The notes beneath the pieces were generated by a model. It did no database searches and had not been told where the DNA came from. It saw nothing but the letters and a program-made list of their open reading frames with translations. Below, piece by piece: positions 188 to 44,109 of a DNA stretch of 64,000 nt (positions are counted from its first letter, which is position 1; each line of letters opens with the position of its first letter). The stretch is taken from contig NC_091931.1 of the NCBI RefSeq assembly GCF_041260155.1, positions 12,445,361 to 12,509,360 on the forward strand. Direction: 5' to 3'. This DNA is from Ptychodera flava (taxonomy: Eukaryota > Hemichordata > Enteropneusta > Ptychoderidae). Position numbers and translations under genes: made by a program.

Positions 188-299
188 CGCACATATCAAC
201 CAATAAGAAAGCAGCATTTGTAAGATCAGTTAGTGTAAAATCCTTCCAGGAAATGACGTCACCACAATTAACTTCACCATGACAAGCATGCGAGATGCT
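188..299 (-). CDS. Gene D exon 3, pentraxin C-terminal strand
   Basis: 112-bp exon ending at a GTGAGT donor, phase 0 in, phase 1 out. Reads [18 protein letters not shown] then a segment ending LLVDMCG. It matches the C-terminal pentraxin strand (x-GNVISW) and the same-sized exon in A, B and C. Confidence 0.8.
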
Positions 300-41600: not shown

Positions 41601-44109
41601 AGAGGGTGAAAGCAGACATGGTTGGTACGGGTTGAGAGATGGCCACATAGCTCCACTCACATGAGCTATCCAGCATAACCTTCTTCATCGTGAATGCCCC
41701 GTCACCTTGACAGTCCGCACCGTCTGTAGAAATAATAATCAAGACATTACTTGGGACGTCTCAATTTCCAAACTGGTAAAAAACGATGGCTTAATTTTGG
41801 TAGAGAATGCTGCCATGCAAATTTGCAATGAAGGTAGAAGAACATACATGTAGTTCTGTAAAGCAGTGGAGTGTTCAATAATATTCATCACTAGCTACAT
41901 ATTTTTTTTAAGTTTCTAGGGTTAACTACAGTATTAGAGAAAATGTTGTAATCTTAAAGTCCGACTATACGTAGTCATTTACGTAAAGGCAAATCATCTT
42001 TTGGTAAAAATATATGACAGTTTATATACAAAGGAATTTGTCCTTCACATTGTTATATTTTCAGTTTATGCATAGATTCAGAGTGACGAAGAGTTACGCT
42101 GGCGTGTTCCTCATTAGGATTTGATTTAGTCTTTAACTTTTTGTTCGCTGAATATAAAATAACTTCCTGGGAAATTTCTGGGGAAAAAAAGTGAAAATTT
42201 GACTTTGCGGAGATATGATGCAGGGTATACCGGGCCAACAAACTGCAAGGTCACCTATCAGCGAAGATACTAAGTTGGAGGCAGGCGACTTTTCCAAATA
42301 TTTCCACCCGGATTTCCTATGTATCGTTATTTTCCATGAATTTCCTACACTCGTTGTTGCTGTACGTAGTTCCTTGCAGAAGACAGTCGTGTCAAAAGTT
42401 CTCTTAAGGCATCACACATGAAGTAATCCCTCCCCCACCCCTCCAATCTTTCTAAGTATGCGATAATGTTTGATAAATAGCACATAAGGAGCACCCCTGT
42501 TTGTTTCTCGGGTATACAAGTGGGAAATATAGTCCATTTTCTCTGTCCGACATAGAGTGCTGAAGATGTCCTTACGTTATTTTGTTTTATTTTTTATTCC
42601 TTTTATTTTATTTTTGTTACTTTTCTCTGGCTCTTAATGGGAGTTGGTCATAGCTATTAACTACATGTACTGGGATTGTAAAAATGAACTTTCAGGGAGA
42701 ACATCTAGCATCATGGCCATGGTTCTTTTTCTTTCACAAACGAACGTCAGGTTATATGAAGGCCCTACAGATAGTGGCCCCACGTGCCCACCACGGACAC
42801 ATGTATCCACTAGTGACATACAGGTGACAACCAAGTTCTTTCTGAACATGCAAGCGGTATCCACTACTACAGTAACTACAGTACTACAGAGTTCAGGATG
42901 TCGGGATATTCAAGTTGAAGTGTACGCGATTCACAGACATTGATCATTTATGGTCATAATAACATTCTCTACTCGCAAACTTTCATATTTGTTTTCAGGA
43001 GAGCTCAATATTGCAAATACATAATATTGAAGAGTTCAATTCCATCTTATGAAAGATGTAATGTGTAATTTGGCAGAAAAAAAAACTATGCGACGACCAT
43101 GATAGCGAACATTTAATAATTTTAGAGTCATTTTATCCGCAAAAACAAACACGAAAGATACTCAAAAAATGTGATCAGGTAAATTTTTTCATAAAACGCA
43201 TTATAAAGTGACTCTTTACCCACTTACCCACAGATTTCACTGTGGATTACTCTACAATATGTAATCATTCCCAAAATTTAGATGGGTCGTCATACATGAT
43301 TTGTGGTTAGAGCGAACGACTGGGCATGCGTCGGTTATAGCAAATTCGCACAGTTGCGTAGTATCGTAAACATAATCTTTGTCCAGTATAATGTAATGCA
43401 GAATACTGTATCGGATTTAAAAGCGTATCTTCCTTCCCGATAGCTTATTCTCTGCTTTTAATATTATTTAGTTGATTTTATACGCTGGGGCTACACGTTA
43501 ATCTCGTTGGTTCCCAATATTTACATGTATTACGAATAGTTAAAACAAATTAGAACGTGTTTCTTCAACTAAGTTTTATATGCAGTTGCATTGACTTGGT
43601 AGGTACAGTTACGTAATACAGTTACAAAATCTTCACAAAATTCAATCAGGAATTTGAACTCCCGTAAAATGACAAAGAACAACCTTCGATTCTTTACTGC
43701 ATTTGTGACAATTGCCATGTTGAAAGGCCAAGTTCTTTCTTTCCATGCATTGCGTTGTCAAGCGATAAGGAATGTCCAATCACTGTAAGTGTCCTCTCCA
43801 TGAATACAAAATAACGCGTGAAACGTTTCAATTGAGAAATACGTACCAACATTTCAGTTTTATTGGACTAATTAAGTGAAGGTTTGAAGCTAATTGCAAA
43901 TTTGCTATGTACTTGTCTTTCGTTGAATATTCAATGTCATATCAGTGTCACCGATTTTACAGCCCAGTGCATCACCACGCCTACATGTACAATGCAACTG
44001 CTTTTCATTTGAAATTAAATAATCTTTGCCTACCTGCTGTATTAATTATGAACGGAACTGAAGCAATAAAAATGGTCTTGATGATCGTCACGATGATAAA
44101 AGTATCCAT
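32006..44109 (-). CDS. Gene C: secreted pentraxin-PAN-EGF-CCP3-FReD protein, 756 aa
   Basis: Nine exons (44034-44109, 41191-41723, 38168-38279, 36999-37267, 35979-36081, 34201-34365, 33641-33805, 32790-32954, 32006-32688) give 2271 bp with stop. Domains: signal peptide 1-25, pentraxin 26-240, PAN/apple 241-330, EGF-like 331-364, three CCPs 365-419, 420-474 and 475-529, FReD 530-756. It differs from A and B by two extra CCP modules, one extra codon in both the PAN and EGF exons and a six-residue C-terminal tail (PSLPMR). Introns contain a LINE fragment (34625-35725), a MITE (36599-36809) and the second hAT-like copy (39645-40704). Its start lies 1.9 kb from the divergent NWD2-like gene. No frame breaks seen. 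Confidence 0.88.
32790..32954 (-). CDS. Gene C exon 8, CCP module 3
   Basis: 165 bp, phase 1 in and out. Reads [32 protein letters not shown] and SNASPLCR. Differs from exon 7 at only about seven residues. Confidence 0.9.
33641..33805 (-). CDS. Gene C exon 7, CCP module 2
   Basis: 165 bp, phase 1 in and out. Reads [32 protein letters not shown] and SNASPLCR. Almost the same as exon 8. Confidence 0.9.
34201..34365 (-). CDS. Gene C exon 6, CCP module 1 (divergent)
   Basis: 165 bp, phase 1 in and out. Reads DCDSPEQLQNGYHSGEYY, MVTFSCNPGHTLTGPT, LMCDNGVW and YPVCH. It is clearly a CCP but far from the other modules in the window. Confidence 0.87.
34625..35725 (-). mobile_element. LINE fragment, reverse transcriptase C-terminus and 3' tail
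   Basis: Minus-strand frames give non-LTR RT thumb blocks: WLDMNKLTLYVQKTQWMLFG, ERVECFKYLGVFFDEFLKWN, KISARLGVLRRIRP, IQPLFDYCDIIWDGANKTDI, LQHRAARIILNDF and AINYFNNLPAVFHDI. They lie in at least three frames, so the copy is broken. It ends in an (AAATA)n-type tail (TTTATT repeats at 34630-34662 on the plus strand). 5'-truncated, within a gene C intron. Confidence 0.85.
35979..36081 (-). CDS. Gene C exon 5, EGF-like module
   Basis: 103 bp, phase 0 in, phase 1 out. Six cysteines: ACASQPCSAGEVCQATSC, then YEC and PTC; one residue longer than in A and B. Confidence 0.75.
36082..36998. other. Gene C intron 4
   Basis: Contains the 211-bp MITE; otherwise A/T-rich with nothing recognised. Confidence 0.6.
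36599..36809. mobile_element. AACACGATT-type MITE, copy 1 (211 bp)
   Basis: Ends AACACGATTAGAACTAATTT (36599) and AAATTAGTTCCAATCGTGTT (36809) are inverted, pairing over about 32 bp. Inner sequence matches 59018-59230 in opposite orientation. Confidence 0.85.
36999..37267 (-). CDS. Gene C exon 4, PAN/apple domain
   Basis: 269 bp, one codon longer than in A and B. Contains [35 protein letters not shown] and [18 protein letters not shown]. Confidence 0.85.
37268..38167. other. Gene C intron 3
   Basis: No repeat or coding pattern recognised. Confidence 0.55.
38168..38279 (-). CDS. Gene C exon 3, pentraxin C-terminal strand
   Basis: 112 bp, phase 0 in, phase 1 out. Reads [18 protein letters not shown] and ends LLPSDTCG. 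Confidence 0.82.
38280..41190. other. Gene C intron 2
   Basis: Contains hAT-like copy 2; the rest is unrecognised. Confidence 0.6.
39645..40704. mobile_element. hAT-like non-autonomous transposon, copy 2 (1060 bp)
   Basis: Same element as 25118-26165, same orientation. Ends CACCTGTGGCCACTTTAGTG and CACTAAAGTGGCCACGGGTG. Flanked by a direct repeat TATTTAG at 39638-39644 and 40705-40711, a likely target duplication (7 bp, 8 expected for hAT). No transposase frame. Confidence 0.82.
41191..41723 (-). CDS. Gene C exon 2, pentraxin domain (main part)
   Basis: 533 bp, phase 1 in, 0 out, TCTACAG acceptor and GTTAGT donor. Motifs: CEWSYVAISQPVPTMSAF, FTLCVW, WHHVCVKW, IAIIGQGQAIVGGGFSRTR, NFNLW. Closest to gene D in the glycine-rich turn. 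Confidence 0.88.
41724..44033. other. Gene C intron 1
   Basis: No repeat or coding pattern recognised in 2.3 kb. Confidence 0.55.
44034..44109 (-). CDS. Gene C exon 1, signal peptide
   Basis: Twenty-five codons plus one base beginning MDTFIIVTII with core KTIFIASVPFII, ending at GTAGGC in phase 1. Same length as exon 1 of A, B and D. Confidence 0.75.

Follow-up and report, generated by a model that had tools for sequence, protein, structure and literature searches.

A tandem gene family in the hemichordate Ptychodera flava predicted to join pentraxin, PAN, CCP and fibrinogen-related domains in one secreted chain

The stretch of Ptychodera flava DNA analysed here (contig NC_091931.1, positions 12,445,361 to 12,509,360; 64,000 nucleotides, hereafter the window, with coordinates counted from its first nucleotide) carries a tandemly arrayed gene family on the minus strand, with three complete genes (g1, g2 and g3) and the 5' part of a fourth (g4) that runs off the left end of the window. 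The modules follow each other in the order signal peptide, pentraxin domain (encoded in two exons), PAN domain, Cys-rich exon, CCP (Sushi) domain and fibrinogen-related domain (FReD), the latter followed by the stop codon; CCP is present in three copies in g1 and in one copy each in g2 and g3. The joined chains comprise 756 (g1), 639 (g2) and 638 (g3) amino acids (aa), and the partial g4 chain 240 aa. A first-pass annotation of the window had described three complete genes and the start of a fourth, and the coordinates obtained here agree with it at both ends of the array: 44109 is the ATG of the g1 signal-peptide exon, and the second pentraxin exon of g4 ends at 188.

Gene array, exon structure and transcripts

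The genes and exons of the array, all on the minus strand, are as follows.

44109-32006, minus strand: g1, whole gene
44034..44109, minus strand: g1 exon 1, signal peptide, 76 nt, phase-1 donor
41191..41723, minus strand: g1 exon 2, pentraxin part 1, 533 nt
38168..38279, minus strand: g1 exon 3, pentraxin part 2, 112 nt
36999..37267, minus strand: g1 PAN/apple exon, 269 nt
35979..36081, minus strand: g1 Cys-rich half-EGF-like exon, 103 nt, no Pfam EGF match
34201..34365, minus strand: g1 CCP a, 165 nt, diverged from CCP b and c (23/54 aa identical)
33641..33805, minus strand: g1 CCP b, 165 nt
32790..32954, minus strand: g1 CCP c, 165 nt
32006..32688, minus strand: g1 FReD exon including the stop codon
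29142-21322, minus strand: g2, whole gene
29067..29142, minus strand: g2 exon 1, signal peptide, 76 nt
26773..27305, minus strand: g2 pentraxin part 1, 533 nt
26216..26327, minus strand: g2 pentraxin part 2, 112 nt
24148..24413, minus strand: g2 PAN exon, 266 nt
22757..22856, minus strand: g2 Cys-rich half-EGF-like exon, 100 nt
22095..22259, minus strand: g2 CCP, 165 nt
21322..21989, minus strand: g2 FReD exon including the stop codon
13370-5640, minus strand: g3, whole gene
13295..13370, minus strand: g3 exon 1, signal peptide, 76 nt
11877..12409, minus strand: g3 pentraxin part 1, 533 nt
11177..11288, minus strand: g3 pentraxin part 2, 112 nt
9459..9724, minus strand: g3 PAN exon, 266 nt
8189..8288, minus strand: g3 Cys-rich half-EGF-like exon, 100 nt
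6413..6577, minus strand: g3 CCP, 165 nt
5640..6304, minus strand: g3 FReD exon including the stop codon
1987-188, minus strand: g4, 5' part, running off the left end of the window
1912..1987, minus strand: g4 exon 1, signal peptide, 76 nt
814..1346, minus strand: g4 pentraxin part 1, 533 nt
188..299, minus strand: g4 pentraxin part 2, 112 nt

Splice sites were picked by eye among GT/AG candidates with the phase kept in mind, and the chains are predicted joins. The Pfam Pentaxin model matches all four chains (84.9, 72.6, 59.4 and 90.0 bits; gathering cut-off 25); the broader fold model Laminin_G_3 (cut-off 27.6) passes in g1 (61.5), g2 (36.4) and g4 (52.0) and remains below the cut-off in g3 (22.1). 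All three complete chains contain Fibrinogen_C (164.3, 172 and 170.6 bits; cut-off 22), PAN_1 (30.7, 35.1 and 34.4 bits; cut-off 21.4) and Sushi (33.2-75.5 bits; cut-off 20.7) matches, with three separate Sushi stretches in g1. The module that the first-pass annotation had called EGF does not hold up to the same check: the Cys-rich exon encodes six cysteines with the spacing 4-5-3-4-6 (g2 and g3) or 4-5-4-4-6 (g1), without the C-x-C that we take to be part of the EGF spacing, and the Pfam EGF model matches neither the Cys-rich stretch of g1-g3 nor the g2 exon searched alone.

The exon structure is nearly invariant across the array. The signal-peptide exon (76 nt), the two pentraxin exons (533 and 112 nt) and all five CCP exons (165 nt) have identical lengths in every copy, and the PAN exon (269, 266 and 266 nt in g1, g2 and g3) and the Cys-rich exon (103, 100 and 100 nt) differ by a single codon. 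The entry phases of the two pentraxin exons and of the PAN, Cys-rich, CCP and FReD exons are 1, 0, 1, 0, 1 and 1, respectively, the additional CCPs of g1 also enter in phase 1, and all joins fit. The regions upstream of each pentraxin exon were scanned for signal-peptide exons with an ATG, a hydrophobic core and a phase-1 donor; 76 nt is the sole length common to all four genes, and a shared length appeared in none of 300 Markov-shuffled sets, which, however, are poorer in candidates (mean of 2.72 in all, compared to 8 in the real regions). An in-frame stop is located 33-84 nt upstream of all four ATGs. Homologous exons are 63-83% identical between copies (leaving aside the signal peptide and the g1 CCP a, which is ~48% identical to CCP b), compared to 20-43% for the 60-nt sequences that flank the exons for pentraxin, PAN, the Cys-rich module and FReD in g1-g3. 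The fused architecture is real at the genome level; exon lengths, phases and Pfam matches all agree with the earlier prediction of a tandem family encoding a single secreted chain in which PAN lies between pentraxin and FReD.

The conserved order, phase and exon lengths favour one transcript, and we strongly infer that the pentraxin and FReD exons are joined in it, although alternative products may occur. The pentraxin and FReD exons might instead encode separate proteins, each copy being either a gene pair or a source of alternative transcripts. An in-frame ATG is indeed present in the 101-108 nt intron preceding the FReD exon in all three copies and, if the donor of the second pentraxin exon is not used, a stop is reached after 49, 24, 4 and 11 codons in the four copies. 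In g2, the lead from this ATG into the FReD exon (21990-22031, minus strand) is short, hydrophobic and signal-peptide-like. However, the leads, with 7 (g1), 14 (g2) and 5 (g3) residues, are not conserved in length, and in g1 and g3 they do not reach the size of a signal peptide; the pentraxin exons as delimited are stop-free up to their donors; the earliest Met of the FReD exon is found at residue 35, already within the domain; and when the 17 inter-module introns of g1-g3 were scanned for signal-peptide exons that could be spliced on in matching phase, two weak candidates emerged, both in g1 and neither common to another copy. Together with the match of order, phase and exon lengths in all three complete copies, these features make separate proteins very improbable, more so than any of the readings considered below.

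Pentraxin and FReD modules and their evolution

The residue roles in CRP and ficolin are used as background in this section, and both reference sequences were checked against solved chains. By profile comparison, the best solved relatives of the pentraxin domain are neuronal pentraxins 1 and 2, PTX3 and a SAP-like pentraxin (3flp); the pentraxin-like domains of the adhesion G protein-coupled receptors G4 and G6 are much weaker relatives. The second pentraxin exon aligns with the C-terminus of CRP. Its provisional label as an unknown conserved exon of 37 aa was dropped given this alignment and the Pfam pentraxin match that enters the exon. The cysteines of the intradomain disulfide (CRP C36 and C97) are conserved in all four copies. 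The motif H-x-C-x-[ST]-W-x-S, which we take to be the pentraxin signature, is found in none of them, the S/T position being occupied by K or R in every copy.

At CRP positions D60, N61, E138, D140, E147 and Q150, presumably the calcium-ligand side chains, the CRP residue is retained in none of the four copies, whereas Q139, which we assume to be a backbone calcium ligand, is retained in all of them. Positions 148 and 150 are Arg in all four copies, and positions 66, 76 and 81, presumably the phosphocholine contacts, are changed in each. In the same alignment, PTX3 likewise differs from CRP at several of these positions, and a pentraxin that lacks the calcium site is therefore not unheard of. 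As judged from the alignment, the calcium-dependent ligand site is changed and the domain is not predicted to be a canonical second binding head. The two ligand-binding heads per chain proposed in the first-pass annotation are thus not supported in the form known from CRP: the calcium site, by which CRP-type pentraxins hold their ligand, is altered at all six tested side-chain positions in all four copies.

For the FReD, the best solved relatives by score (among the best 60 of 68 matches) are ficolins 2 and 1, followed by MFAP4, tenascin-R and angiopoietin-1, among others. The local alignments with ficolin-2 span profile positions 27-190 of 221 at most and end at 177-190; the alignments with angiopoietin-1 (profile positions 1-220 of 221), ficolin-3 and FIBCD1 cover nearly the full length. 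In the comparison with ficolin-2, on which three MAFFT modes agree, the Asp-x-Asp calcium motif is conserved in all three FReDs, and WWYK is followed by an insertion of nine residues that separates it from the next Cys. NK stands where ficolin has NG, and an extra pair of cysteines is located downstream, in the C-terminal third. Owing to the insertion and to the change of NG to NK, none of the three FReDs contains W-W-x-x-x-C-x-x-[GSA]-x-x-N-G, the ficolin/FReD signature at the ligand pocket. The altered region presumably corresponds to the acetyl-group pocket of ficolins and tachylectin 5A. The insertion lies within the most variable 12-residue stretch of the FReD among g1-g3 (p 0.0015 in a permutation test which ignores normal loop variability), and the 20 codons surrounding it have a nonsynonymous divergence (dN) of 0.40-0.46, compared to 0.11-0.23 elsewhere. 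The PAN domain has no significant variable stretch by this test (p 0.14).

The copies are old and constrained. Synonymous divergence (dS) between copies is mostly 1-2 per site and for some pairs too high to estimate, with lower values for CCP b and c of g1 compared to g2 (0.38-0.46), the FReDs of g2 and g3 (0.64) and the PAN domains of g1 and g2 (0.70). This divergence is too high for a recent expansion of the array, as had been suggested in the first-pass annotation, and that explanation was rejected. Within g1, CCP b and c, with 49/54 identical aa and a dS of 0.22, are the product of a more recent duplication. Purifying selection is evident in every module except for the signal peptide, which is poorly conserved (12-40% identical residues); dN/dS is 0.13-0.21 for the FReD and 0.15-0.28 for the first pentraxin exon, and the pentraxin, although altered, thus remains under selection at the protein level. 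Such selection implies that the domain does something, and a role in structure or assembly is proposed below.

The modules appear to differ in their histories. At third codon positions where two copies agree against the third, the counts for g1-g2, g1-g3 and g2-g3 are 48, 45 and 30 in the pentraxin and 20, 30 and 60 in the FReD (chi-square 23.9, p 6.5e-6). This contrast suggests gene conversion or exon exchange between copies. With only three copies available, rates specific to branches and modules may also be the cause.

Possible functions, and other elements in the window

Given these features, we propose, with about even confidence, that the array encodes secreted lectin-like proteins in which recognition falls to the FReD, at one end of the chain, and the pentraxin fold provides a structural or multimerising base. 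Each chain would be translated from one transcript and secreted as a modular protein. The FReD, with its calcium motif conserved and a variable nine-residue insertion at the site of the ficolin ligand pocket, would bind the ligand; the pentraxin fold, devoid of the calcium-dependent ligand site, would serve as the structural or oligomerising base; and PAN, the Cys-rich linker and CCP would form the stalk. Ficolins achieve avidity via a collagen base, and pentraxins form rings. By analogy, an oligomer carrying many FReDs could bind avidly to repeated surface ligands, and might be put to immune use. In a more far-reaching version of this proposal, which we hold to be distinctly improbable, a calcium-free pentraxin ring with the two invariant Arg residues at the old ligand face would multimerise FReD heads that differ in the pocket loop from copy to copy, and modules traded by conversion would generate a repertoire of combined FReD and pentraxin variants, amounting to a new class of animal recognition proteins.

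Several observations weigh against the proposed division of labour between the FReD and the pentraxin. A weak residual calcium site may persist in the pentraxin, considering the acidic residue (D or E) at CRP position 61 in three copies and the Glu at position 140 in g3. The most variable pentraxin stretch (p 0.0015 in the permutation test) aligns with CRP 115-125, presumably part of the protomer interface, and among the residues that we take to form this interface in CRP, D155 is retained in all four copies, E101 in one, and R118, K123, E197 and K201 in none. Neuronal pentraxin 1 also differs at the four interface residues that its fragment covers. With the interface residues mostly changed, formation of a ring is not assured from sequence. 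In the FReD, the ficolin-2 match stops before most of the altered C-terminal third, through which angiopoietin-1 aligns, and the insertion might abolish lectin activity altogether. Positive selection in the variable loops is not claimed, dN being lower than dS wherever dS can be estimated (it cannot for one of the three FReD pairs and three of the six pentraxin pairs). The AlphaFold2 models are unusable, with a mean predicted local distance difference test score (pLDDT) of 27.6 for the FReD (3 rows) and 34.2 for the first pentraxin exon (4 rows). Finally, the poly(A)-signal hexamers past the stop codons (2, 5 and 4, compared to ~1.9 per 1200 nt expected from composition) are close to expectation or exceed it and give no clear support.

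The strongest rival, a serious although unlikely one, is a polydom-type (SVEP1-type) protein with a matrix or signalling role, which would function in adhesion or receptor binding and not in the recognition of microbes. The FReDs of angiopoietins are receptor ligands, and the FReD profile matches MFAP4, tenascins and angiopoietins, with angiopoietin-1 covered over nearly the whole profile and ficolin-2 over the narrower range given above. Purifying selection in all modules but the signal peptide is compatible with such a role, as is the pentraxin-PAN/Apple core with a Sushi tail that cnidarian polydoms possess according to the available part of PMC12549020. However, no vWFA or HYR match is found by Pfam in the three complete chains, and ficolins outscore angiopoietins in the FReD profile search. 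Furthermore, the locus combines a tandem array, variable loops and signs of module-wise conversion, a combination that is more common among recognition proteins.

Ordinary lineage-specific domain shuffling, whereby the proteins would have no special function and would simply be secreted, for example, in mucus or an egg coat, appears improbable. Invertebrate mosaics of these modules are known (PMC12549020, in the part available), but several old copies kept open under purifying selection point to a definite function. A two-headed lectin, in which the pentraxin and the FReD of one chain each bind a different ligand, is the most doubtful of the readings that keep the chain whole. Each of the two folds is present and subject to purifying selection, the invariant Arg residues at CRP positions 148 and 150 could form a new anion-binding site, and PTX3 sets a partial precedent for departure from CRP; nevertheless, the change of the CRP calcium-ligand side chains in all four copies runs counter to the known binding mode of CRP.

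Outside and between the exons of the array, the window contains the following elements.

57195-63998, plus strand: pieces of an NWD1-like NACHT/WD40 gene, with an HTH_NWD1 match at 60275-60634 (Pfam, E 1.5e-8, above cut-off), a NACHT/NPHP3_N match at 57195-57488 (below cut-off) and WD40-type matches at 62918-63998
50124-50910 and 52067-52797: two arrays of a 51-bp (17-codon) tandem repeat, inverted relative to each other, 98-100% identical and ~1.15 kb apart
25127-26155 (g2 intron) and 39645-40704 (g1 intron): two copies of a ~1-kb element
34878-35755, minus strand: broken reverse-transcriptase-like fragment, recognised by eye, in the intron that separates the Cys-rich exon of g1 from CCP a

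In one frame, the 51-bp repeats encode Cys-rich DICERKTFDCDADFECG repeats; the inverted arrays may stem from a mobile element, from inverted duplication in the recent past or from faulty assembly. The ~1-kb element has terminal inverted repeats of 69-79 nt that are 83-84% complementary, its two copies share blocks with 93-100% identity, and it is probably a recently active DNA transposon or an element resembling miniature inverted-repeat transposable elements (MITE-like). A piece of the reverse-transcriptase-like fragment (35132-35368) has no Pfam match. Scans of the window for Rfam families (at the gathering threshold) and tRNAs were empty.

Comparison with known systems

The same domain order was not found among the matches listed in searches of open-access PMC full texts, in line with the first-pass annotation, which knew of no such family; subscription journals and database annotations are outside this scope, where the same order may exist. 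The array thus combines familiar modules in an arrangement for which no description was found in the open-access literature.

The nearest arrangement found is that of the polydoms, especially those of cnidarians, in which pentraxin is combined with PAN/Apple, Sushi and EGF modules (PMC12549020). In the available part of that source, polydoms are described with vWFA, HYR, FA58C and CUB domains and without FReD, whereas the array proteins contain a FReD and the complete chains g1-g3 have no Pfam match to any of these four domains. Gastropod FREPs are likewise multi-module proteins with one C-terminal FReD (PMC9334734 and PMC8878817, in the parts available) but their FReD is paired with immunoglobulin domains, for which there is no Pfam match in the array chains. 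The accessible text of PMC9334734 also describes, alongside FREPs, a mollusc gene named Bf with the composition vWA-Sushi-EGF-pentraxin, and that of PMC8878817 deals with rotifer FReD proteins and the FREP, CREP and GREP families; the portions available of PMC4595640 and PMC12960093 contain nothing closer. Searches with the FReD alignment in viral (30 pattern matches) and prokaryotic genome contigs (98), and with the pentraxin alignment in viral contigs (34), gave no match confirmed by tblastn; as these collections are viral and prokaryotic, the negatives say nothing about other animals.

With neuronal pentraxins, PTX3 and CRP/SAP, the array proteins share the pentraxin fold, as indicated by profile comparison, and the conserved disulfide cysteines. 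In those proteins, the pentraxin domain is known to end the chain, whereas in the array it is N-terminal and followed by PAN, CCP and FReD, with the CRP calcium ligands changed in all four copies. The similarity to ficolins (FCN2 and FCN1) consists in predicted secretion, the C-terminal FReD, which matches ficolins best by score among solved structures in the PDB, and the conserved Asp-x-Asp motif. Unlike the array proteins, ficolins are not known to contain pentraxin, PAN or CCP, and the P. flava FReD is distinguished by the nine-residue insertion, NK in place of NG and the extra Cys pair. Ficolins possess a collagen stalk; no collagen match is found in the three complete chains (Pfam, E up to 1). 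Vertebrates employ pentraxins and ficolin-type FReDs in two separate systems of soluble recognition. If the reading favoured here, in which the FReD recognises the ligand and the pentraxin forms the base, is correct, the pentraxin fold could be reused as a scaffold in place of the collagen stalk, and the array provides a defined set of proteins in which ligand binding and assembly can be tested.

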